Source of the DNA: Bacteroidales bacterium
GTDB lineage: Bacteria; Bacteroidota; Bacteroidia; Bacteroidales; WCHB1-69
DNA: 36,321 nt
Assembly (NCBI GenBank): GCA_017525245.1
Contig: JAFXTE010000034.1
Coordinates: forward strand, 1-36,321
Direction of reading: 5' to 3'
Shown here: in pieces, positions 2,893 to 27,039 of the stretch
How positions within the stretch are numbered: position 1 is the stretch's first letter
How the letters are laid out: the number at the start of each line of letters is the position of its first letter
The notes under the pieces: generated by a model
The model's database searches: none
What the model was told of the DNA's origin: nothing
The model's input: the letters and a program-made list of their open reading frames with translations, nothing else
Position numbers and translations under genes: made by a program

Positions 2893-2981
2893 CATCAATG
2901 AAAAGCGTTTGTCAAGTTAAAAATTGTTAATAATTTCAATGCAATATTTTAACATATAACATTGATATGACCCGTTACAAT

Positions 2982-3030
2982 TTATTACGGAGACGTTTCA
3001 TTATTACAGAGACGTTTCAGGAAACGTCTC
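2982..3030. repeat. Tandem 19-bp repeat ending in a perfect palindrome
   Basis: Two 19-bp copies (2982-3000 and 3001-3019) differ at one base. The second copy forms the left arm of a palindrome: gagacgtttc at 3009-3018, a 2-bp centre, then gaaacgtctc at 3021-3030. It lies just upstream of the queA -7 box. It could be a REP-like element, an operator for a dimeric protein, or a terminator-like hairpin without a T tract. Confidence 0.85.
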
Positions 3031-3052
3031 TACTGCGTATTCGCAATTTGTG

Positions 3053-3060
3053 TATTTTTG
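3053..3060 (+). promoter_or_regulatory. -7 promoter box (TATTTTTG) of queA
   Basis: A TAnnTTTG match ends 5 bp before the ATG of queA at 3066. The transcript would therefore begin at or within a few bases of the start codon, giving a leaderless or nearly leaderless mRNA. The usual -33 position falls just downstream of the palindrome at 3009-3030 and has no TTTG. Confidence 0.6.
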
Positions 3061-3065
3061 CCGCC

Positions 3066-4289
3066 ATGACTGATCCGAATAAAAACATCCGCATAGAAGA
3101 TTACGACTACCCGCTGCCGGAGTCACGTATTGCCATGTATCCCGTTGCCCAAAGGGACCAATCCAAACTATTGATTTACAACAAGGAAGAAAGGAAAATC
3201 ACCGATGCGCAATTCCACCAGTTACCTGAATTTTTGACAGACAATCATTGGTTGGTGTTCAATAATTCCAAAGTGATTCATGCGCGGCTGTTGGTACACA
3301 ACACCACCGGCGCCGCCATCGAAATTTTCTGCCTCGAACCGCTCGCCCCCACTTCGGATCCTGCCGTCGCATTTACGTTAAGTGGCAGTGTGACATGGAA
3401 GTGCATGGTTGGAAATGCCAGAAAATGGAAACATCCGTTGGAGATAGAGGTCCCTATTAGCGAGCGGGTTATACGCATCAAAGCGGAACGTGGCGAAGCC
3501 ATCGAAGGCACGTTTGAGGTCACTTTCACTTGGACGGAAACCGATGTTTCTTTCGCTGAATGGATTGAGGCATACGGGAAAGTACCGTTGCCGCCATACA
3601 TCCATCGTGATGCAGAAGACAGTGACACAGAACGTTACCAGACCGTATATGCCCGCTACGACGGCTCTGTGGCAGCCCCTACCGCCGGACTTCACTTCAC
3701 CGATGAACTACTGCATACTCTCAACAAGAAAAGTATTGAAACAGAATACGTTACACTTCATGTCGGGGCCGGTACTTTCAAGCCCGTCTCGTCAGAGACA
3801 ATCGGAGGGCATTTCATGCACGAGGAGAAGATTCTGATAACCGAAGATTTTATACGTAAATTACTGAAAAACAGCAATAAGAAGCTTGTCGCCGTGGGTA
3901 CGACCGTCACGCGCACGTTGGAGTCGCTCTTTGTTATCGGAGCCAAATTGCATCTCGGAATCGAACAGCCACTTTTGGTGGAACAATGGGAGACATACGA
4001 GAATCCCGCGATCCATCAAGTGACTGTGGAACAGTCGTTAACCTCCATTCTCAACTACCTTGAAGCGCATGATACGGATATGTTGCGGGCCAGCACGCGT
4101 CTCATCATCCTGCCGACCTATACGCGCCACATTGTCAAAGGGCTGATCACCAATTTCCATCAGCCGAAAAGCACACTTTTGTTATTGATTTCCAATTTTT
4201 TAGGCGAAGATTGGCATCAGGTTTACCAACACGCCTTAGATAACGGATACCGTTTTCTAAGCTATGGCGATGCAAATCTGTACTTGTAA
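3066..4289 (+). CDS. queA: S-adenosylmethionine:tRNA ribosyltransferase-isomerase
   Basis: QueA transfers and isomerises the ribosyl moiety of S-adenosylmethionine onto 7-aminomethyl-7-deazaguanine in tRNA, forming epoxyqueuosine; it acts in the cytosol. The 407-aa product shows the family's N-terminal phrase YDYPLPESRIAMYP and the conserved GSVAAPTAGLHFT (residues ~199-212), with VGAGTFKPV nearby, and NFHQPKSTLLLLISNF near the C-terminus. The open frame extends upstream to 2967, but that extension crosses the palindrome and the -7 box and matches nothing in the family, so ATG 3066 is chosen. At 407 aa it is longer than the ~350-aa proteobacterial form, consistent with the longer forms found in Bacteroidota. 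It stands alone, converging with the unknown gene at 4324. Confidence 0.95.
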   Translation: MTDPNKNIRIEDYDYPLPESRIAMYPVAQRDQSKLLIYNKEERKITDAQFHQLPEFLTDNHWLVFNNSKVIHARLLVHNTTGAAIEIFCLEPLAPTSDPAVAFTLSGSVTWKCMVGNARKWKHPLEIEVPISERVIRIKAERGEAIEGTFEVTFTWTETDVSFAEWIEAYGKVPLPPYIHRDAEDSDTERYQTVYARYDGSVAAPTAGLHFTDELLHTLNKKSIETEYVTLHVGAGTFKPVSSETIGGHFMHEEKILITEDFIRKLLKNSNKKLVAVGTTVTRTLESLFVIGAKLHLGIEQPLLVEQWETYENPAIHQVTVEQSLTSILNYLEAHDTDMLRASTRLIILPTYTRHIVKGLITNFHQPKSTLLLLISNFLGEDWHQVYQHALDNGYRFLSYGDANLYL

Positions 4290-4323
4290 ATTGCTGTATA
4301 TATAGAATTATGGTCAACATCGA

Positions 4324-4935
4324 CTAACCGTTGGTAGCCGCCTCGCTTAGTTTGTTCTGCACCATATTTTCCCAACGCAGGAAAGCATTGGTCTGGACAT
4401 CATAAAAAACATTGTAAAACGTTCTGGCCCAATAGTTTCGAGTCCCGAAACCCGCCGGAGTTTTCAGGAATTTTTCGCACAGAACCACCTCTTGCGTTTC
4501 CGTTTTTGTGATTACCACCCAGATGGCCGCAGTTTTCACAGTCGTGTCGAACGACTCCACCACAAACGACAAGGCATAGGGATATGTTTTCGGCAACGTC
4601 AGTTCAGACATATACAGAACCATCTGGTCATCTGTGAAAACGTCTTTTATGTCGATATATTTGGCAAACAAATTACTGATTTTCACAGACTTGTTTAATT
4701 TTGTCACGGCAGACAAATCGTAGTGCATCACGGGTTTCCGGAAACTCATACGGATGTCGTACTTTTTTTGGTCGTTCAAAATCAACTTGTTCCATTCCTG
4801 AAAATAATGCTGCATGATTTCCTGAGAATAATCGAAACCGGCACGAGTGAACTTGGCCTTGGAGAAATTCACCCCGACCCATAGTATCTCCCTGACACTC
4901 AAGAAATCTACAAACAAATCTTCATTCATGTACAT
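4324..4935 (-). CDS. Conserved hypothetical protein, third gene of a putative operon
   Basis: A 203-aa protein without signal peptide or membrane segment; I do not recognise its family. The sequence is globular, mixed alpha/beta, with a basic and aromatic composition (for example TRNYWARTFYNVFYDVQ near the C-terminus). The frame can begin at TTG 4941, but ATG 4935 is better: it has AAAGG about nine bases upstream, and another ATG follows two codons later. It starts 21 bp after the acyl-ACP thioesterase stop on the same strand and so is probably co-transcribed. Its role cannot be derived from the sequence. Confidence 0.8.
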   Translation of the reverse strand: MYMNEDLFVDFLSVREILWVGVNFSKAKFTRAGFDYSQEIMQHYFQEWNKLILNDQKKYDIRMSFRKPVMHYDLSAVTKLNKSVKISNLFAKYIDIKDVFTDDQMVLYMSELTLPKTYPYALSFVVESFDTTVKTAAIWVVITKTETQEVVLCEKFLKTPAGFGTRNYWARTFYNVFYDVQTNAFLRWENMVQNKLSEAATNG

Positions 4936-4956
4936 ACGCAACTACCTTTCAAAAGA

Positions 4957-5712
4957 TCATGACAAATCCACTGTTTCCCACTCCGTTTGAAGACGGCAAT
5001 ACTCTGTATTACCATCTGCGGAAAATATGGCCGTATTGAAGCAACTGTCGGAAACGGGTTCCGTACACACTATATATCGGTCGCCGAGCTTGGCTTGAGC
5101 AATGAATTTGACCGCCACGCCGGTGATTCTGTGCGTCTGTCGGAAAGACTCGCTCATCGCATCAAAAGCCCACTGGATATAATGAGCATTGTTGACGTGT
5201 TTGTTTATGTCGATATCAGAATGCCGCACATCCATTGGCTCAGGAAGCGTATCCGGAAGCCTTATCGGCCCGATTTTCATCGGTTTAAGCTCCAATGCGC
5301 TGCGGTCCAGCGGGCAGAAACAACCGTCGAAAATGTTCATGCGCTGGGGTTGCCCTTTCTCTTTGTCCAAAATGGCCCATACGGTGCTTGCTGCAACCAA
5401 GACTTGTCCGTCGGAACCTATGATTTCGATGTCGCGAGGAGAAGTGGCCGCACCCGATTTTCTCACCCACGTGCGTACCGTAACCTCTTCTGTCCATTTA
5501 GGCAAACGGTTGATTTTCATCTGGATTTTGATGATCACCCAGAAAAAACCACGCTCGCGAAGACTATGCCAGCCAGCCCCTAAAATGGTAGCATGGCGGT
5601 CGCTCATCTCCTGCATCAGCTGAAACAGTGAACAGACCGTCATCTGGGACCTGTCATCTACAAAATAGGACGGGATTATGAGTTTTTTCTCTAAAATCGG
5701 CAATGGTTCCAT
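4957..5712 (-). CDS. Acyl-ACP thioesterase (FatA/FatB-like, hotdog fold)
   Basis: This enzyme releases free fatty acids from acyl-acyl carrier protein in the cytosol. The 251-aa product matches the bacterial PF01643 family in length and motifs: an N-terminal hotdog with GFFWVIIKIQMKI and WVRKSG, then the second hotdog with RHSDIDINKHVNNAHY (residues 163-178), which holds the Asp/Asn/His cluster used for catalysis in the family (N170, H172). The start is ATG 5712, only 12 bp after the stop of the C69 dipeptidase, so the two are likely co-transcribed. Bacteroidota commonly encode one such enzyme; acyl chain preference cannot be read from sequence. Confidence 0.9.
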   Translation of the reverse strand: MEPLPILEKKLIIPSYFVDDRSQMTVCSLFQLMQEMSDRHATILGAGWHSLRERGFFWVIIKIQMKINRLPKWTEEVTVRTWVRKSGAATSPRDIEIIGSDGQVLVAASTVWAILDKEKGQPQRMNIFDGCFCPLDRSALELKPMKIGPIRLPDTLPEPMDVRHSDIDINKHVNNAHYIQWAFDAMSESFRQTHRITGVAVKFIAQAKLGDRYIVCTEPVSDSCFNTAIFSADGNTEYCRLQTEWETVDLS

Positions 5713-5724
5713 GTCACGTATATT

Positions 5725-7320
5725 TTACCACATTCCATCAAATGTTGTCCAAATCTCATCACCCAGTTTCCAAGCGCGCTCAACGGCTTCATTTCCACAA
5801 ATATCAGTAAAGTTAGTCAACACCTGGATAGCATCATCATAACGATCCTGCTTGATCAGTTCCATCGCTTCCTGTTCGATGACAAAATGCTCTTTGATGA
5901 ACTCTTTCTGCATTGGTTTCCACACATTGTCCACCACAACATGCATATCCCCCCATCGTTGTGCGGCCAACGTACCCACGCGGTTGAACGCCCACCACGC
6001 GGCATCCCTGCTAAAACCTGTCAGGCGACCGTCCGTCTTATACGTTTCCGGCAGATCTGTAACATTCGCATAGATAGGTACATAGATGGAAGAAGCGACA
6101 TTGTCCAAGGCGAACCAGCACAACGCACCCACCTCATCGGGCAGCCAGTTGCGGCATTGGATGATGGTGGCATAGACCGTGAAATGGACGGCGATACTGC
6201 GCTCACCGCGTTCGTTCCAGCCACCATTGATGCGATGCAGCTTCAACTCATCGAGCTTCATGAACGGATTGGCCATCGGGGAAATGACGTTTTTGCCATC
6301 TTTGTCAGTGACCGTCAACGTCTTGCGCATGTCATACGGAGTTCCTTCGTAATAGTCATGGAAAATGCTCATCATCTTCTCCAAGGTAACCAATGTATCA
6401 GGTTTCACTGAAAACGGATAGTTTTCAGCGTTCGGGTCGAGGTGGAGGGAAGGGGCCACGAGGTCGAACACGCGCCATTCCCTACGGCGGCAAGCCATCA
6501 TCGTGCGGGTCTGCGGCGCGTATGCGTATGCGAAACGGAAGGTCTCTTTACCATCCCACCAACCGTTCTCTTTGGCTAACGAATAGACGTTGTCGGAAGC
6601 CATGAAATAATCTTTGTCTTTAAGGTTGATTTCGCGAATAGTGGATGCATTAGCATTAACAGCCACATGGTCGTCGGGAACGCGCTGTGCCGCCCAGACT
6701 GCTCCCACCTTGTCTTTACCGGGACCAAGGATTTCAAGATGCCAAACCTCGTCCTTGTCGGCGATGGTCAGGCACTCGCCGGCATCAATCCAACCGTATT
6801 TTTTCAGCAGCACGCCCGCGGTTTCGATAGCTTCGCGTGCGGTGCAGCAACGTTGCAAAAGCAACATGCACAGTCTCTGACAATCAATAAGTCCGCTATC
6901 GGATTGCAGTTCCTTTCGACCGCCGAACGTCGATTCGCCAATGGCCAACTGCGCCTCGTTCACGCAAGGATAGGCCGTGTTGAGGAACTGGTAGGTGTGC
7001 TCCACCTGCGGAATCTCACCGATGAGGATGTTGTCGTAGCGTTGCATCTGGCCGGGAAGCTGCTTTTTCGCCCATTGACGCTTATAGAGGGGTTGCATCG
7101 CGCCACGCTCGTAATCCTGCTCGGGGGTCACGTAAATGTTCGTGCGCGAGCGATGGCTGTCGTCCGTGTGCGAGGTCATCACCGAACCGTCCGCCGATGC
7201 CTTTTTGCCCACCGTGATGGAGGTGCATTCCATGCCGTCGGACTCGAAATCAGCGACGTTCTGCGCCGAAACGGATACTATCCATAAAAATGCTACTACA
7301 ACTAAGAAAAATCTTTTCAT
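5725..7320 (-). CDS. Secreted C69-family dipeptidase (PepD-like)
   Basis: A 531-aa peptidase of MEROPS family C69 with a signal peptide (MKRFFLVVVAFLWIVSVSAQ), so probably periplasmic. The family uses an N-terminal-nucleophile Cys exposed by processing. The candidate is Cys32 in MECTSITVGKKASADGSVM, followed by the typical TSHTDD. Further family features are AYAPQTRTMMACRRREWRVFDLVAPSL in pieces and the C-terminal Trp-rich segment. The start ATG 7320 gives a clean signal peptide. The 5' leader carries four 7-bp tandem units ending 4 bp before the ATG, with a -7 box (TACTTTTG) at 7365-7372. It is the first gene of a likely operon with the thioesterase and an unknown protein; why a dipeptidase and a thioesterase travel together is not clear. 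Confidence 0.9.
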   Translation of the reverse strand: MKRFFLVVVAFLWIVSVSAQNVADFESDGMECTSITVGKKASADGSVMTSHTDDSHRSRTNIYVTPEQDYERGAMQPLYKRQWAKKQLPGQMQRYDNILIGEIPQVEHTYQFLNTAYPCVNEAQLAIGESTFGGRKELQSDSGLIDCQRLCMLLLQRCCTAREAIETAGVLLKKYGWIDAGECLTIADKDEVWHLEILGPGKDKVGAVWAAQRVPDDHVAVNANASTIREINLKDKDYFMASDNVYSLAKENGWWDGKETFRFAYAYAPQTRTMMACRRREWRVFDLVAPSLHLDPNAENYPFSVKPDTLVTLEKMMSIFHDYYEGTPYDMRKTLTVTDKDGKNVISPMANPFMKLDELKLHRINGGWNERGERSIAVHFTVYATIIQCRNWLPDEVGALCWFALDNVASSIYVPIYANVTDLPETYKTDGRLTGFSRDAAWWAFNRVGTLAAQRWGDMHVVVDNVWKPMQKEFIKEHFVIEQEAMELIKQDRYDDAIQVLTNFTDICGNEAVERAWKLGDEIWTTFDGMW

Positions 7321-7324
7321 ATCT

Positions 7325-7352
7325 TTGGCTGTTGGCTGTTAGCTATTGGCTT
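7325..7352 (-). repeat. Heptanucleotide tandem repeat in dipeptidase leader
   Basis: Four 7-bp units (plus strand ttggctg, ttggctg, ttagcta, ttggctt) lie between the -7 box and the ATG of the C69 dipeptidase, ending 4 bp from the start codon, where a ribosome binding site would normally sit. Confidence 0.88.
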
Positions 7353-7364
7353 AAAAATAAAATG

Positions 7365-7372
7365 CAAAAGTA
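7365..7372 (-). promoter_or_regulatory. -7 promoter box (TACTTTTG) of the dipeptidase operon
   Basis: Minus-strand TACTTTTG fits TAnnTTTG, 44 bp before the ATG at 7320. A run of T and AT-rich DNA lies upstream; no clear -33 element. The rest of the 150-bp gap to the helicase stop shows nothing else recognisable. Confidence 0.55.
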
Positions 7373-7472
7373 CAATTTTTTTCATGGTACTGCAGCGATT
7401 ATTTTTACAATGACACTTTTTGATATTGAATTTTTTTGCCGTTATTTCTCTTTTGCACAGTGAGTTTGATTT

Positions 7473-9704
7473 TCATAAAGAGAACCGACCGCACACCCGC
7501 CGTATCATTCCCTCAACATCTAACACACCGTGTGCGAAGCCTTTGCGAATCAACTCTTCCGGAACATATTCGTCGTATTTCTCAAAAACGGGGTTTTCTT
7601 TGGGATAGACGAGCTCTAACGGGTCAAAGGTGACGGACGCTTCTTCGCTGACAATGCGGTAGAATTCCTCCTCGCTGACTTTCATGGTGAACTGCATGAA
7701 ATAGGGTCTTGAGGCGTTCAATCCTTTCAGTCCGAGGCGTTTCCCGCAACGGATTTTGAGGAATCGCTCCAATGCGAGGAAGGCGTAGCTGCCCAACCAC
7801 GGGAACAACGCCCACATATTGCCGCCGAGATGCACTAACGGTCGGTCTGGCATCCCGGATTTTGTGAAAGTCTCGCGGGCGTCCTGCAAACGTCCGACCG
7901 CGTGCCGCATCAGGTAGGGATAGCTTTTTTGCTCCGCTAACACACCGTACATGCGTTCGAGGATGCGCGTGTGGATGTCGCCGGCGCAGTCACCGAAGTA
8001 GGCGGGGATGTTCCCTTTCACGAGCGTGCAATAGACCACCCGTTTCTGATGGTCCACCTCGTCCACTGCCCAAACCCTGCCGACGATGGCGATTTTGTCG
8101 CCCACTGGCGGCGGTTTCACGATAGTGCCGAGTTCCTCGGAGTAGGAGCGCACCGTATATTCGATATTCTCTTGGAATACGGCGTAGAACTTGTAACTGT
8201 TGACGATTCTTTCCCCGGTGAGTCCGAGAATCAAGCCTCCGTTTTCCGTCCGCATGATGTGGTCGATTTTGAGCAGATGACGGAGCAGCGTCCGGAAGTC
8301 ATCCTGGCTGATGCGTCGGAAAGCCGTCAGCGGGAGCACCCGTGAGGCGAGTTCCGCCGGGGTCATCTCCCCGCAGGAAGCTAACGTGCTCATTGTCTGG
8401 TGGTAGAGGAGGCTGAAAGGGAGTCGGTTGGTGCGCGGCGGCTCCACAAACCGCTCTTCGATGTAGAGTTGCACGAGGGCGATGCCCTGAATCAGTCGCC
8501 ACGGAATCATGTCGGGAAGCATGGCACGGGCTTCGGGGTGTTCCTCCCGCATAACGAACCACATCTCCGACGGGTCGCCACGCCTGCCTGTGCGACCCAT
8601 GCGCTGCAGAAACCCCGACACAGTATAGGGTGCATCAATTTGGAATGCCCGCTCCAACTTTCCGATGTCGATGCCCAACTCCAAAGTAGCGGTGGCGCAC
8701 ACCGACATCAGCGAGTTGTCGTCCTTCATCTCCTCCTCGGCACTCTCCCGGTAGGAGGCGGAGAGGTTGCCGTGGTGAATAAGGAAGCGGTCAGGCTCGT
8801 GATTGACTTCGCAGTATTGCCGCAGTTGTTGGCAGACGGCTTCGCACTCCTCCCGCGAGTTGGTGAAGACGAGGCATTTTTTGCCCCGCGTATGCTCGAA
8901 AATATAGCCAATGCCGGGATCCGCCGCTTTCGGGGCGGTGTCGCTTGACGGTTCCTGTTCGGGTGTTTGCACCGTGATGTCCTTGTCCTCGTCTGCCTGC
9001 GGGTCAGTGTTGAAGAAGTGCTCCATGGAGAGCCGCCAGACCTCTTTGCCGCCGTCGAATTTGGGGATGATCGTCGGGCGGCCGCTGCCTGCCGACAGGA
9101 ACTGCCCGGCTGCTTCGGGGTTTCCGAGTGTGGCGGAGAGACCGATTCGGCGGGGCTTACATTCTGCAATCCTGCAGAGCCGCTCAATGAGGCAGAAGGT
9201 CTGCCAGCCGCGGTCGCCGCGCAGCAGCGAGTGGATTTCGTCAATGACGATGAAACGGAGGTCGCCGAACAGCGAAGGAATCTCCCCGTGTTTGTTGATG
9301 AGCAGCGACTCTAACGATTCGGGTGTGATTTGGAGGATGCCCGACGGTTTGCGGAGCAACTTCCGTTTGCGCGACTGCGCCACGTCGCCGTGCCACCGGT
9401 AAACCTCGATGCCCACCTCCTCGCAAAGTTCGTTCAGCCGCCCGAACTGGTCGTTGATGAGCGCTTTCAGCGGCGCGATGTAAAGGATTCCGACGGTTGA
9501 TGACGGATTCTCGTCCAACAGGGTCAGCATCGGGAAGAAGGCGGCCTCGGTCTTGCCGGAGGCTGTGGAGGCGGTGAGCAGGACGTTGTCGTCGGTGTCG
9601 AAAATGGCCTCTCCGGCAGCGTTCTGCACGCCCCGGAGGGTCTGCCAGCCGGAGCGGTAGATGAAATCCTGGATGAAGGGGGAATAACGGGCGAAGACGT
9701 TCAT
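7473..9704 (-). CDS. sngC: Lhr-like DEAD/DEAH-box helicase, Shango SngC candidate
   Basis: A 743-aa superfamily 2 helicase. Visible motifs: Walker A TASTASGKT (residues 44-52), APLKALINDQ (Ia), ITPESLESLL, DEIH (155-158), SAT (190-192), LVFTNSREE, a GIDIG motif and motif VI QRMGRTGRRG (367-376). The layout is that of Lhr-type helicases, close to those called BrxHI in BREX type 2. The TerB-domain protein and P-loop ATPase immediately upstream match the three-gene Shango anti-phage system (TerB-like protein, ATPase, helicase). A GTG at 9719 would lengthen it by five codons, but the -7 box at 9724-9731 makes ATG 9704 the better start. It is separated from sngB by 180 bp holding a strong hairpin and its own promoter, so expression may be partly independent. 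Confidence 0.88.
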   Translation of the reverse strand: MNVFARYSPFIQDFIYRSGWQTLRGVQNAAGEAIFDTDDNVLLTASTASGKTEAAFFPMLTLLDENPSSTVGILYIAPLKALINDQFGRLNELCEEVGIEVYRWHGDVAQSRKRKLLRKPSGILQITPESLESLLINKHGEIPSLFGDLRFIVIDEIHSLLRGDRGWQTFCLIERLCRIAECKPRRIGLSATLGNPEAAGQFLSAGSGRPTIIPKFDGGKEVWRLSMEHFFNTDPQADEDKDITVQTPEQEPSSDTAPKAADPGIGYIFEHTRGKKCLVFTNSREECEAVCQQLRQYCEVNHEPDRFLIHHGNLSASYRESAEEEMKDDNSLMSVCATATLELGIDIGKLERAFQIDAPYTVSGFLQRMGRTGRRGDPSEMWFVMREEHPEARAMLPDMIPWRLIQGIALVQLYIEERFVEPPRTNRLPFSLLYHQTMSTLASCGEMTPAELASRVLPLTAFRRISQDDFRTLLRHLLKIDHIMRTENGGLILGLTGERIVNSYKFYAVFQENIEYTVRSYSEELGTIVKPPPVGDKIAIVGRVWAVDEVDHQKRVVYCTLVKGNIPAYFGDCAGDIHTRILERMYGVLAEQKSYPYLMRHAVGRLQDARETFTKSGMPDRPLVHLGGNMWALFPWLGSYAFLALERFLKIRCGKRLGLKGLNASRPYFMQFTMKVSEEEFYRIVSEEASVTFDPLELVYPKENPVFEKYDEYVPEELIRKGFAHGVLDVEGMIRRVCGRFSL

Positions 9705-9723
9705 GATACAATAAAACACTTTG

Positions 9724-9731
9724 CAAAGATA
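9724..9731 (-). promoter_or_regulatory. -7 promoter box (TATCTTTG) of the helicase gene
   Basis: Minus-strand TATCTTTG is a full TAnnTTTG match, 19 bp before ATG 9704 and 5 bp downstream of the long hairpin. The -33 region therefore lies inside the hairpin arm, so terminator and promoter overlap physically. Confidence 0.65.
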
Positions 9732-9795
9732 AAAAAATTACCGTAAACCAGCGCAATCGATGATTTTTTGATGGATTGCGCTGGTTTACGGTAAT
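9731..9795 (-). terminator. 22-bp perfect inverted repeat plus T tract between sngB and sngC
   Basis: The arms at 9737-9758 and 9774-9795 are perfect 22-bp reverse complements around a 15-nt loop. On the minus strand the second arm is followed directly by seven T residues (7 A on the plus strand, 9731-9737, the last also part of the arm). This is the form of an intrinsic terminator for the sngA-sngB transcript. The stem is unusually long and perfect, so a small mobile palindrome or a protein-binding operator are alternatives. Confidence 0.75.
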
Positions 9796-9884
9796 CGGCG
9801 AGGCATACACGTTGCTATAATGTCAAAATGGCAAATCGTATGATGGTTGTTCTTCACAGACAAAAAGTGTCGGCTCGTGTCAGC

Positions 9885-11216
9885 TTATATCGTGAACTCC
9901 ACAAATCCCCCTTCCGCCTCGTCGCTCACCGCCTCGCTCTTGGCGTATGAGAACTCGTCAGATTCGAGCAACGTGGTCAGGGTCATCGTCGGGTGCTGGT
10001 ACAGCAGGTCGAGCAGCTCGATGAAGTCGCGGATGACCTCGCGGGGCGTGATGTTCTGGTCGGCCCCGATACGGCCGAACTCCACCTTGATGAACGCCAC
10101 GAGGTCATCGGTCGTGAGGCTGCGCGGGTAGCCGTAAAGCCCGGCGTGCATGTCGGCGAGCTTCTCGCAGAGCACTAACATCTCCTCCGCCGTCAAGGGC
10201 TCCAGCCGGATGACGGGCGCGAGCAGGTCGCGGGTGCCCGGACGCGAGAACTTGCCCTCCGCAAGCCGCGAACGCAACGCCTCGTAACTGTAAATACCGC
10301 GCCGCTTGTCCTCCACAGCTTGCGGTGTTGCCCCCATGATGATGCCGAAATACCGAGCCTTGCCCTGCAGCGTGTCGTTGTACATAGTCAGCATCTTCTC
10401 GTAGTTGTATTGGCGGGTGATGGTGTTCGGAATCTTGTAGATGTTGACCAATTCGTCAATCATAATCATCATGCCCGCATAACCTGCCAGACGGAAGAAG
10501 GTGGCGAAAATCTTCAAGTAATCGTACCAGTCGTCGTCCGTGATAATCATATTCACACCGAGTTCCTCTTTGGCTTCTTTCTTGAGATTGTATTCACCTC
10601 TGAACCAGCGCACCACCTTGGCTTTCGTTTCGTCATCGCCGTTGACGTAGGCGTGGTAGTAGGCGGAGAGCAGCCTGGCGAACTCGAAACCGTGTACAAG
10701 TTCGCTTACGGAGGACGTGACCGCGTAAATCTTCCGGTCCACAGCTTGCGTCAGAGCTGGATCTCCCGGAACGAGGCCGGTTTCCTGCGCCGCCTCTGAC
10801 TGCACGGTGCTGATCCAACGGTCCAACACCAACGTCAGGGCGCCGCCTTCGGGTTTCGTCTTCGTGGAAAGGTTGCCGATCAGTTCGCGGTAGGTCGCCA
10901 ACCCCTGCCCTTTCGTACCTTGCAGCCTCCGCTCGGGCGAGAGGTCGGCATCGGCCACGATGAATCCCCTGTCCATCACGTAGTTGCGGATGGTCTGCAG
11001 CAGGAAGCTCTTGCCGGAACCGTATCTGCCGACGATGAACCGGAACGACGCGCCGCCCTCGCTGATGATATCGACATCGTGGAGCAGCGCCTCGATCTCG
11101 CTCTTCCGTCCGACGGTGATGTAGGGCAGCCCAATTCGCGGCACTACCCCACCCTTCAGAGAGTTGAGCACTGTTTGGGCAATACGTTTTGGTACTTTTC
11201 GGTTTTCTTCGTTCAT
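9885..11216 (-). CDS. sngB: P-loop ATPase (DUF2791/BrxD-like), Shango SngB candidate
   Basis: A 443-aa ATP-binding protein with Walker A GRYGSGKS (residues 63-70) and Walker B MMIMIDE (249-255). It opens with VGRKSEIEALLHDVD, a pattern of the BREX-type ATP-binding family (DUF2791) and its BrxD relatives. It sits between a TerB-N/TerB-C protein and an Lhr-like helicase, the arrangement described for Shango, where the ATPase is SngB. No methylase, PglZ or PglX is present, which argues against BREX. The ATG at 11216 is 33 bp after the sngA stop, and a 7-bp hairpin spans that junction. How the ATPase works with the helicase is not known from sequence. Confidence 0.88.
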   Translation of the reverse strand: MNEENRKVPKRIAQTVLNSLKGGVVPRIGLPYITVGRKSEIEALLHDVDIISEGGASFRFIVGRYGSGKSFLLQTIRNYVMDRGFIVADADLSPERRLQGTKGQGLATYRELIGNLSTKTKPEGGALTLVLDRWISTVQSEAAQETGLVPGDPALTQAVDRKIYAVTSSVSELVHGFEFARLLSAYYHAYVNGDDETKAKVVRWFRGEYNLKKEAKEELGVNMIITDDDWYDYLKIFATFFRLAGYAGMMIMIDELVNIYKIPNTITRQYNYEKMLTMYNDTLQGKARYFGIIMGATPQAVEDKRRGIYSYEALRSRLAEGKFSRPGTRDLLAPVIRLEPLTAEEMLVLCEKLADMHAGLYGYPRSLTTDDLVAFIKVEFGRIGADQNITPREVIRDFIELLDLLYQHPTMTLTTLLESDEFSYAKSEAVSDEAEGGFVEFTI

Positions 11217-11232
11217 ACTTTTAGTTTTATAT

Positions 11233-11259
11233 CCCAGGGCTCAATGCGTTCACCCTGGG
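11233..11259 (-). promoter_or_regulatory. Hairpin spanning the sngA stop codon
   Basis: CCCAGGG (minus strand, 11259-11253) pairs perfectly with CCCTGGG (11239-11233), with a 13-nt loop containing the sngA TGA stop. It ends 17 bp before the sngB ATG and has no T tract. It could tune sngB translation or partial readthrough. This is a visible structure with inferred function. Confidence 0.55.
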
Positions 11260-12839
11260 TTAACATAGGTCGGGCTTTCAGTCCTTTTTGGAAAAGTTTG
11301 ATGTTCAACTAAAGGTCTTACCTCCTCTACATAATCTTCCACTAGACTTATTCGTTCCCCATCGCATTCGAGGATGTTGTCCCCGATTTCATCGAAGAAG
11401 GCTTCGTTGATAGTGTCGGTGACGATGGAGGGCATGAGCCGATTCGCGGTCATCAACTCTTGCACGGGCTGGCCGTCTAAAAGGGCGACCACAATCTGCC
11501 TGTGTATCGGGTCTAACGACAAGGTGGTTACTTCTTCTATTACTGTTTCAGAAACGGGGATTTCTTCTGTGACCGGTTCTTCCTCGGCCTCTATCAAGTC
11601 CTCTTCCGTGAGCAGGCTGTCGCGTGTCACGACCGCATCGGCACGGATTTGGACGAGGTGGGTGAGGTCGATGTTGACTTTCGGCCGCGCCGCCTCGATT
11701 TTCGCCTGCCTGTCCGCCTCAATGACCGCCTCCACGTAAGGAATCGCCCACGCCTCTTCGGGTTTTTCGCGGAGATAGGGGGCTTTTTTCAAATATCTGC
11801 GGAGCATCAGGTCAGTGACGTGTACCAACTCTTTGATCCAATCCCTTTTGAAATAGAGTTCTTTATACGTTTCCTCCTTCCAAGAGTTGTTGTGATAGCG
11901 ATAACGCAGACAACTGTTCAGCTCGTAGGAGATTTCCGTCAGGTCGCGCCGTTCCAGATACACAGCATTGGCAAGTGGGTACCAGCTGAACCCCATTTGG
12001 TTGCCAAAACAAGTGGTAAAAAGATCTTTGCCGTCCTGGAGATGTTGTGCCGAGGCGAGTCTCCAAACTTCGGCGAAGAGATGTTTGCCGGCAACCGCGT
12101 CCGCACGGATAACGGGGGAGGATTCTATCTTCCGTTCCTTGAAATGGCGGAGAGCCAGAAAAATTTCCTCATCAGTCTTGTTGTCGGGGGTTCGGAGAAT
12201 TTCCAAATCTCGGGCGAGCCGGATGTAGTATGGCTCTATGTACTGAAGGACGATCTTTTTCGGCAGTTGGTGGATGATGGCGAGTTCCGTCATCCATCGG
12301 TGGAGGTTGTACTGAATATGCGGGTCGCAGATGCCCGTCTCGAGGAACTCTGTTTCAAACTCCTGCATCCGCCACAGGCTCTCCTCCACAGATGAGGTTC
12401 CGATGCCGTTGAGCAGTTCGTAGAGGTAGATGTATGCCAAGGAGGTGGCAATCGGGAGACGCTCGCCTTTGCGCAGGCGCGTCCGCCATGTGAAATAGCC
12501 CCGCAGCTGAGGGATATTCAGGTCGTGGTAGGTGGGGAAATAGCGCCGGAACTCGCCATTCCACGGAAAGTCATCCTCATAGTCCTCCATGAACTTGCCT
12601 TGCCGGTAGAAATTCCGGCATTTTTGCTTGAACGAGCCATCGCCGTATTCGTACAAGGACAGCATTTCGCGGATTTTGGCAGGCACGGACGGGTCGTCCC
12701 TCCCCTCTGAATCACCAGCGGAAATAGCCGTTTCCCGATAATCGGACACATTCTGCGTGGACTGCGTGTCAATTACAATCACGTAGCCGTTCTCTTTTTG
12801 GGTTAAATCCGTGTAAACAGAATGTTCCGTCAAGGTCAT
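11250..12839 (-). CDS. sngA: TerB-N/TerB-C domain protein, Shango SngA candidate
   Basis: A 529-aa protein without signal peptide or membrane helix. Residues ~50-250 look like a TerB-N domain, with FPTYHDLNIPQLRGYFTWRT and RLRKGE followed by a helical YIYLYELLNGIG. Residues ~385-510 look like TerB-C: THLVQIRADAV, then an acidic linker of E/P-rich sequence, then LLDGQPVQELMTANRLMPS and NEAFFDEIGDNILE. Such proteins are linked to DNA-processing ATPases and helicases in the comparative work on Ter domains, and the triad has been named Shango and shown to resist phage in E. coli and P. aeruginosa. Start ATG 12839 follows AAAAAGG and a TACCTTTG -7 box at 12860-12867. It is the first gene of the module, divergent from the zinc peptidase. 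Confidence 0.87.
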   Translation of the reverse strand: MTLTEHSVYTDLTQKENGYVIVIDTQSTQNVSDYRETAISAGDSEGRDDPSVPAKIREMLSLYEYGDGSFKQKCRNFYRQGKFMEDYEDDFPWNGEFRRYFPTYHDLNIPQLRGYFTWRTRLRKGERLPIATSLAYIYLYELLNGIGTSSVEESLWRMQEFETEFLETGICDPHIQYNLHRWMTELAIIHQLPKKIVLQYIEPYYIRLARDLEILRTPDNKTDEEIFLALRHFKERKIESSPVIRADAVAGKHLFAEVWRLASAQHLQDGKDLFTTCFGNQMGFSWYPLANAVYLERRDLTEISYELNSCLRYRYHNNSWKEETYKELYFKRDWIKELVHVTDLMLRRYLKKAPYLREKPEEAWAIPYVEAVIEADRQAKIEAARPKVNIDLTHLVQIRADAVVTRDSLLTEEDLIEAEEEPVTEEIPVSETVIEEVTTLSLDPIHRQIVVALLDGQPVQELMTANRLMPSIVTDTINEAFFDEIGDNILECDGERISLVEDYVEEVRPLVEHQTFPKRTESPTYVNPG

Positions 12840-12859
12840 TTCCTTTTTGTTTCAGAATG

Positions 12860-12867
12860 CAAAGGTA
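12860..12867 (-). promoter_or_regulatory. -7 promoter box (TACCTTTG) of sngA
   Basis: Minus-strand TACCTTTG matches TAnnTTTG, 20 bp upstream of ATG 12839. The 146-bp divergent region to the zinc peptidase gene carries both promoters; no obvious operator palindrome is seen. Confidence 0.6.
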
Positions 12868-12953
12868 CAATTTTATGGAATATCTTTGAGATATAGACGA
12901 AAAAACTTGTTTGGGATAATCTATAATATCACCACAACAATCAAAGATTTTTA

Positions 12954-12961
12954 TATTTTTG
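12954..12961 (+). promoter_or_regulatory. -7 promoter box (TATTTTTG) of the zinc peptidase
   Basis: Plus-strand TATTTTTG matches TAnnTTTG and ends 24 bp before ATG 12986. No clear -33 element. Confidence 0.55.
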
Positions 12962-12985
12962 CGGTCTTAAAAAACAAAGAAACAA

Positions 12986-13678
12986 ATGGGATACTTTATC
13001 ATTTTTATCGTATTGATGGTTGCGAGCTGGATAGTGCAGAAAACCCTGACCTCGCGTATTGAAAAATATTCTAAAACCCCTATCAGCAGCGGGCTCTCCG
13101 GCAAAGATGTGGCCGAGAAGATGCTGCGTGACAACGGCATCTACGACGTGCAGGTGACCTGTACCGGAGGTTTCCTCACCGACCACTACGACCCGACGAA
13201 GAAGGTTGTGAACCTGAGTCAGGGCGTGTTTGAGGGCCGCAACATCGCTTCCGCCGCCGTCGCTGCGCACGAATGCGGTCACGCCGTGCAGCACGCCACC
13301 GCCTACCGCTGGCTCACCATGCGCTCCAAAATGGTACCCGCCGTGCAATTCGGCTCCCAGTTCTCGCAATGGATCCTGCTGGCCGGCATTGTGCTGCTGA
13401 GTTTCTCCTCGTTTTTAGGCCGCTGGGTTCTGCTGGTGGGCATCGTGCTGTTCGCCCTCACCACGATTTTCTCGCTCATCACCCTGCCCGTGGAATACAA
13501 CGCCTCCGAGCGTGCCGTGGAATGGCTTGAAAGCAACGCCATCACGACCGGCAACGAAACCGCCATGGCCAAGGATGCCCTCAAGTGGGCTGCCCGCACC
13601 TACCTCATCGCCGCCATCTCCTCGCTGGCAACATTACTGTATTATGTGATGATTTTCCTTGGAGGAAGAAGGGACTAA
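12986..13678 (+). CDS. Membrane zinc metallopeptidase, YugP/PF04298 family
   Basis: A 230-aa integral-membrane peptidase of the Zn_peptidase_2 family (YugP-like). The zinc-binding HExxH is HECGH at residues 95-99 in AAVAAHECGHAVQHAT. There is one N-terminal membrane segment (~2-18) and three more (~125-145, ~148-168, ~205-225). The family also shows GxFLTDHYDP and VVNLSQGVF upstream of the active site, seen here as GGFLTDHYDPTKKVVNLSQG. Substrate is unknown for most members. Length is normal and ATG 12986 gives the expected first helix. The DUF4831 gene follows after 41 bp. Confidence 0.93.
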   Translation: MGYFIIFIVLMVASWIVQKTLTSRIEKYSKTPISSGLSGKDVAEKMLRDNGIYDVQVTCTGGFLTDHYDPTKKVVNLSQGVFEGRNIASAAVAAHECGHAVQHATAYRWLTMRSKMVPAVQFGSQFSQWILLAGIVLLSFSSFLGRWVLLVGIVLFALTTIFSLITLPVEYNASERAVEWLESNAITTGNETAMAKDALKWAARTYLIAAISSLATLLYYVMIFLGGRRD

Positions 13679-13711
13679 TTCATAATTCATAATTCATAAT
13701 GCATAATTCAT
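13677..13711 (+). repeat. Heptanucleotide tandem repeat before DUF4831 gene
   Basis: Five 7-bp units of aattcat (fourth unit aatgcat) begin inside the stop codon of the zinc peptidase gene and end 8 bp before the ATG at 13720. Confidence 0.92.
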
Positions 13712-13719
13712 AATTGGCA

Positions 13720-14814
13720 ATGAAAAGAATCAGTATATTGTTGATAATTTGCGTGTTATCCATTTCTGCATTTGCGCAGGTGCAGGTATATCCGTTGAAG
13801 GAATTCCCGGAGAAAGGGGTGAAGTATGTGGGCAAGGTGCAATATGCGCTGCCGACCACCACGTTGAAAGTGACAGTCTCCGTGTCTAAAGTGCAGGACA
13901 TTCGCGGCTATTTCGCCGACTATGCCGAGAGTTTGCTCGGCCTTACGAACATCATCCAACAGAACCGCACCTACTACAAACTCAATTCTGTTGACATTGA
14001 GCCGATTGCAGCTCCTGATGAGTCAAAAGTCTTCGTGGCTTACACCTCAAATACTGACCTCGCAAAATTGTGGCAGGAGGAAAGCATGACCGCAACCGAT
14101 GTACTTGCTGCGACACCACCCATCACCTACACGACCCACACCGCTACGCTGCCTGATTTCTTCAAGAACTACGCCGACATCTCCTACACGCAGCAGTCAG
14201 AGACCTTTGTCGATACCAAAATTATTGACGGTGTGGTGACGCAAGTGCCTGCCAGTCACACGAAAACCGTTTCCAAAAGTTTCGAGAGCAAAGCCCGCGA
14301 GGCCGCCGATGCCATCGTGAAAAGTCGCAAGGACCAATACAATCTGGCTGCTGGAGAACAGGAAACCCCTTATTCCGGGGAGGCCATCCAGACAATGTTG
14401 GCTGAGCTTAAGAGTTGGGAAAACAACTACATGAGTCTCTTTTCCGGTGTATCTATTGCTGACACAATGGTTTACGTATTCTATGTCAACCCGAAGAACC
14501 TCTCTCCGACCACTGCATTCTATTTCAATGCCACAAAAGGATTTAGCCAGGAGAAAGGAGCTGCCGCTGATGCTTACAGTTTGATCTTCAACAGGATATA
14601 CAAAGAAAATATCACCGAAATTATCGAATTCAATTATCCGGAGTACAGTTATATCACCCGCGACAAAAAGCCCGTCCAGGTTTCGCTTACGCACGCCAAC
14701 GACAAAATCCATGATTTCGGTGTCATCAACATGCACCAGGCCGGCTCACTCCAAACCTTCCACCCTTATTCCAAACAAGTGGTAGGAATCAAAGGTATCG
14801 GTTTCGTCTTCTAA
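13720..14814 (+). CDS. DUF4831 family exported protein
   Basis: A 364-aa protein with a signal peptide (MKRISILLIICVLSISAFAQ) followed by the family's typical opening VQVYPLKEFPEKGVKYVGKV and YALPTTTLKVTV, then KVQDIRGYFADYAESLLGL. DUF4831 is a Bacteroidota family of unknown function, probably periplasmic or lipid-surface exposed. A TTG two codons upstream extends the frame, but ATG 13720 gives the better signal peptide. The leader is a heptamer tandem repeat. Next comes a small lipoprotein gene on the same strand after 54 bp, so the two may share a transcript. Confidence 0.87.
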   Translation: MKRISILLIICVLSISAFAQVQVYPLKEFPEKGVKYVGKVQYALPTTTLKVTVSVSKVQDIRGYFADYAESLLGLTNIIQQNRTYYKLNSVDIEPIAAPDESKVFVAYTSNTDLAKLWQEESMTATDVLAATPPITYTTHTATLPDFFKNYADISYTQQSETFVDTKIIDGVVTQVPASHTKTVSKSFESKAREAADAIVKSRKDQYNLAAGEQETPYSGEAIQTMLAELKSWENNYMSLFSGVSIADTMVYVFYVNPKNLSPTTAFYFNATKGFSQEKGAAADAYSLIFNRIYKENITEIIEFNYPEYSYITRDKKPVQVSLTHANDKIHDFGVINMHQAGSLQTFHPYSKQVVGIKGIGFVF

Positions 14815-18496: not shown

Positions 18497-18502
18497 GGTT
18501 TC

Positions 18503-18516
18503 GCCCCTGAAGGGGC
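18503..18516. repeat. REP-like palindrome 1
   Basis: GCCCCT-GA-AGGGGC, a perfect stem 6 bp after the yifB stop, without a recognisable CTCGGTAG tail. It may also serve as the yifB terminator. Confidence 0.65.
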
Positions 18517-18545
18517 TTTCTGGAACCCATCTGTGAACGCCGTTC

Positions 18546-18572
18546 CTACCGAGCTTGCGTCCCTATCGGGAC
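18546..18572 (-). repeat. REP-like element 2 (inverted)
   Basis: CTACCGAGCTT followed by GTCCC-TATC-GGGAC: the same unit as elements 4-6 in reverse orientation. Confidence 0.85.
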
Positions 18573-18611
18573 ATGAAGATCGTTGTGGGTGATGTGCTAT
18601 ACAGGACTGTT

Positions 18612-18626
18612 GTCCCGTCGGGGCAC
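18612..18626 (-). repeat. REP-like element 3 (degenerate, inverted)
   Basis: TGTCCC-GTCG-GGGCA-type imperfect palindrome. The preceding bases resemble a decayed CTACCGAGCTG tail, comparable to element 9. Confidence 0.55.
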
Positions 18627-18672
18627 ATTCCTGTGCGGTGTCAAACGCAGGAAACCGCAACGGTCACGAACA

Positions 18673-18699
18673 GCCCCGTCAGGGGCCAAAGCTCGGTAG
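18673..18699 (+). repeat. REP-like element 4
   Basis: GCCCC-GTCA-GGGGC followed by CAAAGCTCGGTAG. Confidence 0.85.
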
Positions 18700-18724
18700 A
18701 ATGGGTGCCACCGTTCTCCCCATC

Positions 18725-18750
18725 GTCCCGAAAGGACGAAAGCTCGGTAG
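18725..18750 (+). repeat. REP-like element 5
   Basis: GTCC-CGAAA-GGAC followed by GAAAGCTCGGTAG; the stem has lost one pair relative to element 6. Confidence 0.85.
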
Positions 18751-18775
18751 CACGACAGCCGTTGCGGTTTCCCTC

Positions 18776-18802
18776 GTCCCGACAGGGACGAAAGCTCGGT
18801 AG
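18776..18802 (+). repeat. REP-like element 6
   Basis: GTCCC-GACA-GGGAC followed by GAAAGCTCGGTAG; an intact copy of the left-flank type. Confidence 0.88.
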
Positions 18803-18830
18803 AACGAGGAACATCACGGTTCACATGAAC

Positions 18831-18848
18831 GTCCCTTTAGGGACGAAA
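18831..18848 (+). repeat. REP-like element 7 (truncated)
   Basis: GTCCC-TTTA-GGGAC followed by GAAA but no CTCGGTAG; the copy nearest the transposase start. It may mark an element end. Confidence 0.75.
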
Positions 18849-18896
18849 CATAAGACGAAACAAATGACAATTATCACACAAACAAATCAAACCATT

Positions 18897-19370
18897 ATGA
18901 AATCAATGAGAAACAACACCTACACGCAAATCCATATCCAACTGGTTTTTGCAGTTCAAAACAGGGAATCCCTTATCCTCGATTCTTGGAGAGAGCGTCT
19001 GTACAAATACATGATTGCCATAATCCAAAACAACCGCCATAAGGTTCTGGCCATAGGCGGAACGGCGGATCATGTTCACATTCTGATAGGAATGCGCCCA
19101 TCACAATCGTTGTCCGATTTGATGCAGCACGTCAAAGGGTGTTCGTCGAAATGGATAAACGAGAACAGGTTGGCAAATGGCTGGTTCTCCTGGCAGGAGG
19201 GTTATGGCGCATTTTCTTACGCAAAGGATGATTTGCCGAATGTCATCCGTTACATCGAGAATCAGGCCGAGCATCATAAACAGAAAGATGTGGTGGAGGA
19301 ATACAAGGAACTTTTGGAGGAACATGGTGTTGAATACGATGAACGTAATGTTTTTAAGCCAATAGAATGA
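18897..19370 (+). mobile_element. IS200/IS605-like HUH (Y1) transposase, RAYT-like
   Basis: A 157-aa single-domain tyrosine transposase. The HUH motif is HVH at residues 59-61 (GGTADHVHILIG). The catalytic Tyr is most likely Y119 in VIRYIENQAEHH, with Q123 four residues on as in the TnpA Y-x3-Q arrangement. The segment SWQEGYGAFSYAKDDL is typical of the family. The open frame begins at 18555, but the upstream part only translates REP palindromes, so ATG 18897 is taken (18906 is also possible). No TnpB partner is present. Instead REP-like palindromes flank the gene on both sides, as in REP-associated tyrosine transposases, which are domesticated Y1 enzymes that act on REP hairpins. The gene appears intact. 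Confidence 0.9.
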
Positions 19371-19387
19371 TTTATTGTATTTCTGTC

Positions 19388-19402
19388 GCCCCTGACCGGG
19401 GC
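19388..19402. repeat. REP-like palindrome 8
   Basis: GCCCC-TGACC-GGGGC, 18 bp after the transposase stop; possible terminator or right-end hairpin. No tail is seen. Confidence 0.7.
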
Positions 19403-19428
19403 GCGGTTTCGTGCCCTGGCGACGATTC

Positions 19429-19456
19429 CTACCGAGCTGTTGCCCCTGCCGGGGCA
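19429..19456 (-). repeat. REP-like element 9 (inverted)
   Basis: CTACCGAGCTG then GCCCC-TGCC-GGGGC. It faces element 10, whose tail CAGCTCGGTAG is the exact reverse complement, giving a BIME-like pair. Confidence 0.88.
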
Positions 19457-19501
19457 TTTGTTGGTCGGCAACGGATTACGGGAAACTGGCCGGCCATGAA
19501 T

Positions 19502-19529
19502 GGCCCCGGTAGGGGCCTCAGCTCGGTAG
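19502..19529 (+). repeat. REP-like element 10
   Basis: GGCCCC-GGTA-GGGGCC followed by TCAGCTCGGTAG. Confidence 0.9.
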
Positions 19530-19553
19530 AGGGAGACGGTTCGTTTGTCGCCA

Positions 19554-19581
19554 GGCCCCGGTAGGGGCCACAGCTCGGTAG
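19554..19581 (+). repeat. REP-like element 11
   Basis: GGCCCC-GGTA-GGGGCC followed by ACAGCTCGGTAG; nearly identical to element 10. Confidence 0.9.
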
Positions 19582-19607
19582 GGAAGCATGTTGTATTGTA
19601 AATTGTT

Positions 19608-19622
19608 GTCCCGATTAGGGAC
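19608..19622. repeat. REP-like palindrome 12
   Basis: GTCCC-GATTA-GGGAC without a clear tail, the last of the array. It lies just upstream of the -7 box of the next gene. Confidence 0.65.
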
Positions 19623-19643
19623 ATCACAAAACAATAAAAATTT

Positions 19644-19651
19644 TACCTTTG
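19644..19651 (+). promoter_or_regulatory. -7 promoter box (TACCTTTG)
   Basis: TACCTTTG matches TAnnTTTG, 17 bp before ATG 19669; its -33 region falls next to REP-like palindrome 12. Confidence 0.58.
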
Positions 19652-19668
19652 CCGCCAAAATAATCCCA

Positions 19669-20469: not shown

Positions 20470-20559
20470 CATATTGAAAAAGTCTATGTTGCACCTATTT
20501 CATTAAGATACAGGAGCAAAAATCAAAGGATAGATGATTAAAGAAGCAAGCGAAACAGA

Positions 20560-21946: not shown

Positions 21947-21980
21947 CCGTCAGAAACTGATATAATTGAATGATTTCGTC

Positions 21981-26945: not shown

Positions 26946-26953
26946 TATCTTTG
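26946..26953 (+). promoter_or_regulatory. -7 promoter box (TATCTTTG) of the giant adhesin
   Basis: TATCTTTG begins at the base after the stop codon of the first adhesin. The 87-bp leader that follows is mostly heptamer repeat. This suggests separate transcription of the second adhesin in addition to readthrough. Confidence 0.58.
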
Positions 26954-26960
26954 CACCCAA

Positions 26961-27023
26961 AACTTTGAACCTTGAACTTTGAACCTTGATCCTTGAATCC
27001 TGAAACTTGAAACTTGAAACTTA
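26961..27023 (+). repeat. Heptanucleotide tandem repeat, nine units, in giant adhesin leader
   Basis: Nine consecutive 7-bp units: aactttg, aaccttg, aactttg, aaccttg, atccttg, aatcctg, aaacttg, aaacttg, aaactta. The array ends 16 bp before the ATG at 27040. The longest and clearest of the four heptamer arrays. Confidence 0.95.
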
Positions 27024-27039
27024 GAAAACCCATATTATT

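Follow-up and report, generated by a model that had tools for sequence, protein, structure and literature searches.

A complete Shango anti-phage system, probably a recently inserted three-gene cassette, in a Bacteroidales chromosome

The Shango locus

The window analysed here is a stretch of 36,321 nucleotides from a Bacteroidales bacterium (contig JAFXTE010000034.1). Between positions 7473 and 12839 it contains three long, adjacent minus-strand open reading frames (ORFs) in A-B-C order, where a preliminary description made from the letters alone had placed a triad on one strand. The genes and the elements around them are listed below.

7361..7379, no strand assigned: left copy of a 19-nt direct repeat, with the probable -7 box for the C69 peptidase gene
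7473..9704, minus: sngC, 743 aa from ATG at 9704, a BrxHI-related SF2 helicase (PADLOC profile PDLC03960, 8.5e-283, residues 8-739)
9723..9734, minus: promoter-like -7 box directly upstream of sngC, deviating from the pattern at one position
9737..9795, minus: inverted repeat between sngB and sngC, 25-nt arms of 96% complementarity around a 9-nt loop, followed by a T run
9811..9882, no strand assigned: slot separating the inverted repeat from sngB; its 72 bp in the window are unrelated sequence, and in the copy of genome G004 (L072:7057-10198) it measures 3142 bp and holds an EcoRI-type restriction-modification set
9885..11216, minus: sngB, 443 aa, BrxD-like AAA+ ATPase (PADLOC profile PDLC03959, 1e-189, residues 5-431; Pfam BrxC_BrxD, PF10923, 6.9e-168)
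11250..12839, minus: sngA, 529 aa, TerB_N and TerB_C protein, the fast-evolving component (PADLOC profile PDLC03958, 1.4e-70, residues 40-510; Pfam TerB_N, PF13208, 1.3e-22, and TerB_C, PF15615, 2.8e-20, both above the Pfam cut-offs)
12856..12874, no strand assigned: right copy of this repeat, with the probable -7 box for sngA, TAnnTTTG when read on the minus strand

The three products match the PADLOC profiles of the individual Shango components over most of their lengths and in the published gene order, which bears out the composition of TerB protein, ATPase and helicase proposed in the preliminary description. The families named there are likewise recovered in Pfam, where SngC is matched by DEAD (1.7e-29) and Helicase_C (1.2e-17). 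The motor motifs are intact, as described, and can be located in the translations: GRYGSGKS at 63 (Walker A) and MIMIDEL at 250 in SngB, and TASTASGKTE at 44, DEIH at 155, SATLG at 190 and QRMGRTGRRG at 367 in SngC. For sngC, the ATG at 9704 is more likely to be the start than a GTG at 9719; the relatives begin at the same MNVF/MDVF position. The triad is a further member of an already known system, Shango.

The Shango of Pseudomonas aeruginosa PA14, which has the same gene order, reduces plaques 10-100-fold with many phages and protects cultures in liquid (PMC10250203). The window copy shares with the systems of PA14 and Escherichia coli the succession of TerB-like protein, ATPase and helicase. 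In contrast to these, it stands alone between housekeeping-type genes rather than in a defence island, its sngC has a promoter-like box of its own behind a palindrome, and its SngA shows no Pfam match at E ≤ 0.01 to PF05099, a central TerB domain that a review names for Shango (PMC10952713).

SngB and SngC also match the PADLOC models of BrxD (1.3e-48) and BrxHI (7.2e-126), and a study of Hachiman groups SngC with BrxHI, DruE and DpdJ (PMC12278908). Like the BrxD-BrxHI pair of type 2 BREX, the two window genes encode a homologous AAA+ ATPase and SF2 helicase and are linked, so that the locus could be read as the remnant of such a system. This reading is extremely improbable: the Shango models give much better scores (629 bits for SngB, compared with 164 for the BrxD model, and 938 bits for SngC, compared with 419 for the BrxHI model), the NCBIfam BrxD match of 168 bits falls below the cut-off of 350, SngA matches the SngA model only, and PglW, PglX, PglZ and BrxC, which accompany the pair in type 2 BREX, are absent among the window ORFs scanned.

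Insertion site and flanking genes

The cassette has a C69 peptidase gene on one side and a zinc-peptidase gene on the other. In three sister genomes these two neighbours lie side by side and the cassette is absent. The cassette is flanked by the 19-nt direct repeat, which holds the Bacteroidota -7 promoter box (consensus from PMC7366714) and is present as a single copy at all three empty sites. Of promoter-like boxes such as the one upstream of sngC, the window contains 10 against 0.62 expected.

Insertion at a promoter box is drawn from this single site, as no exact empty sites were recovered for the copies in G030, G037, G036/G020 and G006: one flank aligned to relatives as far as the cassette edge, and the second did not appear within the 1.5 kb taken to either side of the query gene. 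At the G006 site homology likewise stops at a -7 box; this is not counted as support, since ahead of any gene the last sequence to remain alignable is expected to be a conserved box. No exact empty site was found at the place occupied in G004 either, where the left flank can be followed in four relatives until the O-antigen ligase gene ends and the right flank cannot be aligned.

The flanks had been described as ordinary chromosomal genes instead of a defence island, and this stands for the 14 window ORFs scanned with PADLOC, a set without the pair of very large ORFs located from position 21966 onwards. Seven of the 14 gave no match to any profile, and the other seven only weak radical-SAM, AAA or CasR-like matches; a defence island at the cassette was accordingly rejected. 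Neither an integrase nor a transposase was found inside or next to the cassette, the nearest such gene in the window being an IS200-type transposase 5.7 kb away. No recombinase family was detected in 13 scanned neighbours across seven sites of the genus, one neighbour in G031 having no family at all, and the window has no tRNA or Rfam landmark.

Distribution and recent acquisition

Shango is present in 8 of 40 genomes of the genus, the window's own included; these are mostly metagenome bins (the own bin is 94% complete with 6.46% contamination, that of G004 68% complete), and incomplete bins may hide further copies. At E ≤ 1e-150, it was found in 4 of 393 genomes of the order, again with the own genome counted. 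The eight bearers in the genus harbour the system at seven different places. The nearest copy, that of G004, occupies another place, and its cassette differs from that of the window by a dS of 0.12-0.14 versus 0.21-1.44 for five neighbour genes. Low dS by itself does not prove recent transfer because the genus recombines: the C69 peptidase and thioesterase genes also show low values (0.124 and 0.110, both to the sister G027).

The empty sites, the patchiness, the seven sites and the low dS together support a recent insertion, and the cassette looks like a mobile acquisition rather than a long-standing resident. These findings contradict the suggestion in the preliminary description that the triad may be a stable resident and not recent cargo. 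The same patchiness shows that the triad is not a core gene set of all relatives, an outcome that the Shango assignment survives and that, together with the empty sites, rules out a stable core gene. A housekeeping module for DNA repair or replication restart would suit the housekeeping-type flanks and the lack of another clear defence gene nearby. It is nevertheless very unlikely, as the triad was not found in 32 of the 40 genus genomes, is missing from the three empty sites, sits at different places in different species and has SngB relatives on plasmids. Overall, with a probability of about 0.9 that covers identity and recent insertion and excludes mechanism, the triad is a complete Shango anti-phage system recently inserted as a three-gene cassette of ~5.5 kb.

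Carriage by phages or plasmids was considered and rejected. No SngB relative was found among 50,697 phage records at E ≤ 1e-20, none was confirmed in viral contigs (5 pattern matches), and the 676 plasmid records with relatives, not all of them Shango, show identities below 60% throughout. In a tree of SngB plus SngC, the 8 Bacteroidota rows fall on one side of a single branch, although its support is only 40; the high identity may therefore overstate how often the system has passed between phyla.

The gap between sngB and sngC

The palindrome at 9737..9795 belongs to a dispersed palindrome of the genus, and the RNA fold of this region has a z of -6.05. A role as plain terminator is not general, as in G016 the element lies between divergent genes. 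It was not listed by the terminator scan, probably because its 9-nt loop exceeds the limit of 8.

In the G004 copy an EcoRI-type restriction set is placed between sngB and sngC. Its endonuclease matches PF02963 (5.3e-151) and PDB 1ckq (2.6e-137), a feature shared with the type II restriction-modification system EcoRI. The classical EcoRI system has one methyltransferase gene, whereas the G004 set has two and lies inside a Shango operon. Within the genus the EcoRI family was met in 1 of 40 genomes, G004 only, and 14 control genomes were also without a match. The slot of the window is not a decayed version of this insert, with which it shares no match longer than 8 nt. Among 78 loci drawn from the best 80 of 285 relatives, the gap, measured to the GTG start of the window, is at most 41 nt in 71. 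Besides the G004 set, inserts of more than 400 nt occur in 4 further loci of the 78, only one of which (RhuM/Fic) is possibly defence-like. Word searches of the literature showed no restriction set nested in Shango among the matches listed; no claim is made that the arrangement is unpublished.

A broader but improbable idea starts from the single exact empty site (in three sisters), where the box is repeated at either end of the cassette, from the seven sites occupied in eight genomes, and from the nested restriction set and the inserts in 4 further loci of 78. In this group of Bacteroidales, Shango might move as nothing more than its three genes and use short homology, without an integrase, to enter at promoter boxes. 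The sngB-sngC gap would then be a cargo slot, insulated by the palindrome, provided with its own promoter and loaded with further defence modules such as the EcoRI-type set.

Evolution of the components and a proposed mechanism

The three components evolve at very different rates. Across 54 loci the median pairwise identity is 46.0% for SngA, 84.4% for SngB and 82.7% for SngC, and SngA is less conserved than the other two in all 1431 locus pairs. Relative to the G004 copy, dN/dS is 0.13 for SngA versus 0.014 for SngB, with no sign of positive selection.

No mechanism for Shango was found in the literature searched. A 2026 study of BREX puts BrxD forward as a possible loader or activator of BrxHI (PMC12839542). 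Applied to Shango, this idea, which is no more than proposed for BREX too, yields a model to which roughly even odds can be given. SngB, as an ORC/Cdc6-type AAA+ ATPase like BrxD, would load the BrxHI-like SF2 helicase SngC onto invading DNA or switch it on there. SngA, changing fast beside a nearly fixed B-C motor, would be the subunit that recognises infection or licenses the motor, and we infer that it replaces the sensing and modifying parts of BREX. The outcome would be that phage DNA replication is obstructed or dismantled. No nuclease domain was found in the three proteins; any cleavage would therefore have to be supplied by host enzymes or by a portion of SngA that escapes recognition.

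A less probable possibility is that the system, still Shango by descent, acts by abortive infection: once the SngB-SngC motor encounters phage DNA, SngA would damage the cell as the effector. The fastest divergence, that of SngA in the 54 loci, is in keeping with this, and SngA has no relative of solved structure by sequence (best E 0.97), which leaves room for an undescribed activity. Against it, no effector family was detected in SngA, which matched TerB_N, TerB_C and SngA profiles only (Pfam, PADLOC and NCBIfam, E ≤ 0.01). The liquid-culture protection by the PA14 system (PMC10250203) fits both readings.

Implications

Sister species in which one chromosomal position is either occupied by Shango or empty, together with two near-identical copies, one with a restriction system inside, constitute a well-delimited natural experiment. 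The near-frozen SngB-SngC motor set against a fast SngA singles out SngA as the subunit to test for phage recognition. Finally, the link to BrxD and BrxHI makes a loader-helicase mechanism for Shango directly testable.

Identity of the triad

Three consecutive genes, arranged in the order A-B-C, make up the cassette:

11250-12839, minus strand: sngA (Pfam TerB_N and TerB_C)
9885-11216, minus strand: sngB (Pfam BrxC_BrxD)
7473-9704, minus strand: sngC (Pfam DEAD and Helicase_C)

The preliminary description had correctly assigned these ORFs to the anti-phage system Shango from motifs and gene order. All three are present as described, and each matches the PADLOC profile of its own component over most of the protein (SngA 1.4e-70, SngB 1e-189, SngC 8.5e-283), in agreement with the Pfam domains; such a triple match is not due to chance. 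The start of sngC is most likely the ATG at 9704. As had been claimed, the window translations of SngB and SngC retain intact motor motifs. Among relatives, the GSGKSF string of SngB is present in 75 of 80 rows, SGKTE of SngC in 71 of 72 and DEIH of SngC in 66 of 72. Shango models outscore those of the related BREX system widely for the window proteins, and the match to the NCBIfam BrxD model lies below its cut-off.

A recent arrival

The triad is flanked on the left by genes for a C69 peptidase, an acyl-ACP thioesterase and QueA, and on the right by genes for a zinc peptidase, DUF4831, an MnmL-type radical SAM protein and a Mg-chelatase-family (ComM-like) protein. No convincing defence family was detected with PADLOC profiles in the 14 flanking ORFs scanned, and for these the flanks are as ordinary as first thought. 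The accompanying suggestion of a stable resident is contradicted by three sister genomes, G007, G027 and G032, in which the same site is empty: the C69 and zinc-peptidase genes adjoin, 166-173 bp apart versus 5.7 kb in the window. In all three alignments left homology stops at 7380 and right homology resumes at 12856, end points that fall inside a 19-nt direct repeat, AATGCAAA(A/G)GTACAATTTT, of which each empty site has a single copy:

7361-7379: left copy
12856-12874: right copy

SngB was found in eight of 40 genomes of the genus, in three of the 23 with completeness of at least 90% and contamination of at most 5%, and, at E ≤ 1e-150, in four of 393 in the order, the window's own being counted in the first and last figures. 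The triad is patchy rather than a core set common to all relatives, and is a recent arrival. The probability that it is both a good Shango member and a recent insertion is put at roughly 0.9, a joint figure that does not extend to mechanism.

Within the repeat, read on the opposite strand, lies TAnnTTTG, the -7 promoter box of Bacteroidota (consensus from PMC7366714). With up to three mismatches, the 19-nt pattern has two sites in the window versus 0.04 expected; the shorter -7 box occurs 10 times versus 0.62, a frequency that suits a promoter element. Because it has the G also present in the sngA promoter of the Shango copy of a sister genome, G004, the right copy probably arrived as part of the cassette. 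As a possible route of movement, entry at promoter boxes via short homology would agree with the single site for which an exact empty counterpart is available.

Elsewhere in the window, 18497-20591 holds an ORF that matches no family and a Y1 transposase gene of IS200 type, with a weaker match to the REP-associated type; the stretch containing them is ∼1.6 kb shorter in G007, marking a second event of lineage-specific insertion or loss close to Shango. The interval 21966-36321 is taken up by two fibronectin type III ORFs, both very large. The first (1659 aa) has a Por secretion tail; the second, scanned over its first 1000 aa, exceeds 3094 aa and runs off the end of the contig.

Multiple sites in the genus

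The eight Shango loci of the genus occupy seven places.

Table. Neighbours of Shango loci (one side / other side)
Window: C69 peptidase / zinc peptidase
G004: O-antigen ligase / secretion-tail protein
G030: GH20 / tRNA synthetase
G020 and G036: DUF4293 / apolipoprotein- or YtxH-like protein
G037: GTPase with KH domain / adenylosuccinate lyase
G006: guanylate kinase / ATPase_2
G031: ORF without family; contig ends inside sngA

No recombinase was found among 13 scanned neighbours, those of G036 being left out because they are homologous to those of G020. The G004 copy shares 96-97% DNA identity with the window, with dS values of 0.124 (sngA), 0.136 (sngB) and 0.120 (sngC). For five neighbour genes the corresponding values are 0.212, 0.338, 0.444, 0.713 and 1.438, the lowest (DUF4831) being based on 174 codons. 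Between the window and G027, dS is low for C69 (0.12) and the thioesterase (0.11) while that of QueA is high (0.58); across 2967-14814, compared with G027, G007 and G032, neighbour-gene values vary several-fold within a few kb, from 0.11 to 0.72. Such differences indicate that homologous recombination is frequent in the genus, and the low Shango dS is therefore support for, not proof of, recent transfer.

Insertions inside Shango

Among the best 80 of 285 relatives, both sngB and sngC are covered in 78 loci. In 71 of these the gap between the two genes is at most 41 nt, counted to the position that corresponds to the window's GTG start. The window itself has a gap of 180 nt between the sngB stop and the sngC ATG, which contains a promoter-like box preceding sngC and an inverted repeat whose 25-nt arms are 96% complementary and which is accompanied by a T run (fold z -6.05 for the region). 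G004 has the same palindrome, and there it precedes 3.1 kb (L072:7057-10198) carrying an EcoRI-type restriction-modification set: an EcoRI endonuclease (PF02963, 5.3e-151; PDB 1ckq, 2.6e-137) beside two N6/N4 methyltransferase genes. The GC content of this insert is 36.8% versus ∼55% in the Shango genes, and G004 is the only one of the 40 genomes in which the EcoRI family was found.

The gap exceeds 400 nt in four further loci of the 78: L089 (RhuM/Fic protein), L114 (histidinol dehydrogenase), and L106 and L112 (two related inserts without clear gene). Among 78 loci in which sngA is covered, two have ∼2 kb between it and sngB, L145:6070-8085 (DUF3990 and Sel1-repeat genes) and L153:7894-10001 (Lcl_C and KilA-N genes). 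From these tallies, insertions inside Shango occur, and are rare and of mixed content.

The palindrome (9737-9795, arms of GTAAACCAGCG type) is dispersed in the genus (other copies L194-L200), with matches at E ≤ 0.01 in eight of 40 genomes, one of only 19 nt. By eye, a -7-type box lies directly beside all seven copies viewed outside Shango; one of the copies precedes an ATPase-like gene (protein MLIGREKEQQ..., read by eye).

Conservation and proposed mechanism

Of 81 distinct loci, 65 have three full-length genes and 54 of these lack stops. Median pairwise identity across the 54 is 46.0% for SngA, 84.4% for SngB and 82.7% for SngC, SngA being the least identical in all 1431 locus pairs. The record titles name hosts from Bacillota, Chloroflexota and Lentisphaerota, among others, as well as complete genomes of two Treponema species; assignments from bins may reflect stray contigs. 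Since the SngB and SngC tree (71 rows) largely tracks phyla, with one change for Bacteroidota (support 40), one for Spirochaetota, two for Chloroflexota and four for Bacillota, the slow evolution of these proteins may account for more of the pattern than recent transfer across phyla. Two loci have an internal stop in the sngA frame, early in L105 (Treponema parvum) and about two thirds along in L093, with sngB and sngC frames free of stops; these are either decayed copies or frame or start errors.

Components, gene order and motifs of the window Shango are established. The PA14 Shango reduces plating 10-100-fold and generally protects strongly in liquid (PMC10250203). SngC is grouped with BrxHI, DruE and DpdJ (PMC12278908), and in BREX the ATPase BrxD is proposed to load or activate the helicase BrxHI (PMC12839542, whose main text contains neither 'Shango' nor 'TerB'). 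By analogy, SngB would load or activate SngC. The subunit most likely to recognise phage or stalled forks is the variable one, SngA. Obstruction of phage DNA driven by SngC is favoured over cutting because Pfam, PADLOC and NCBIfam profiles revealed no nuclease family in the three proteins; the odds of this mode of action are about even, and its main rival would be an abortive role of SngA. Both the multi-site cassette and the EcoRI set nested in its sister copy merit a second look.
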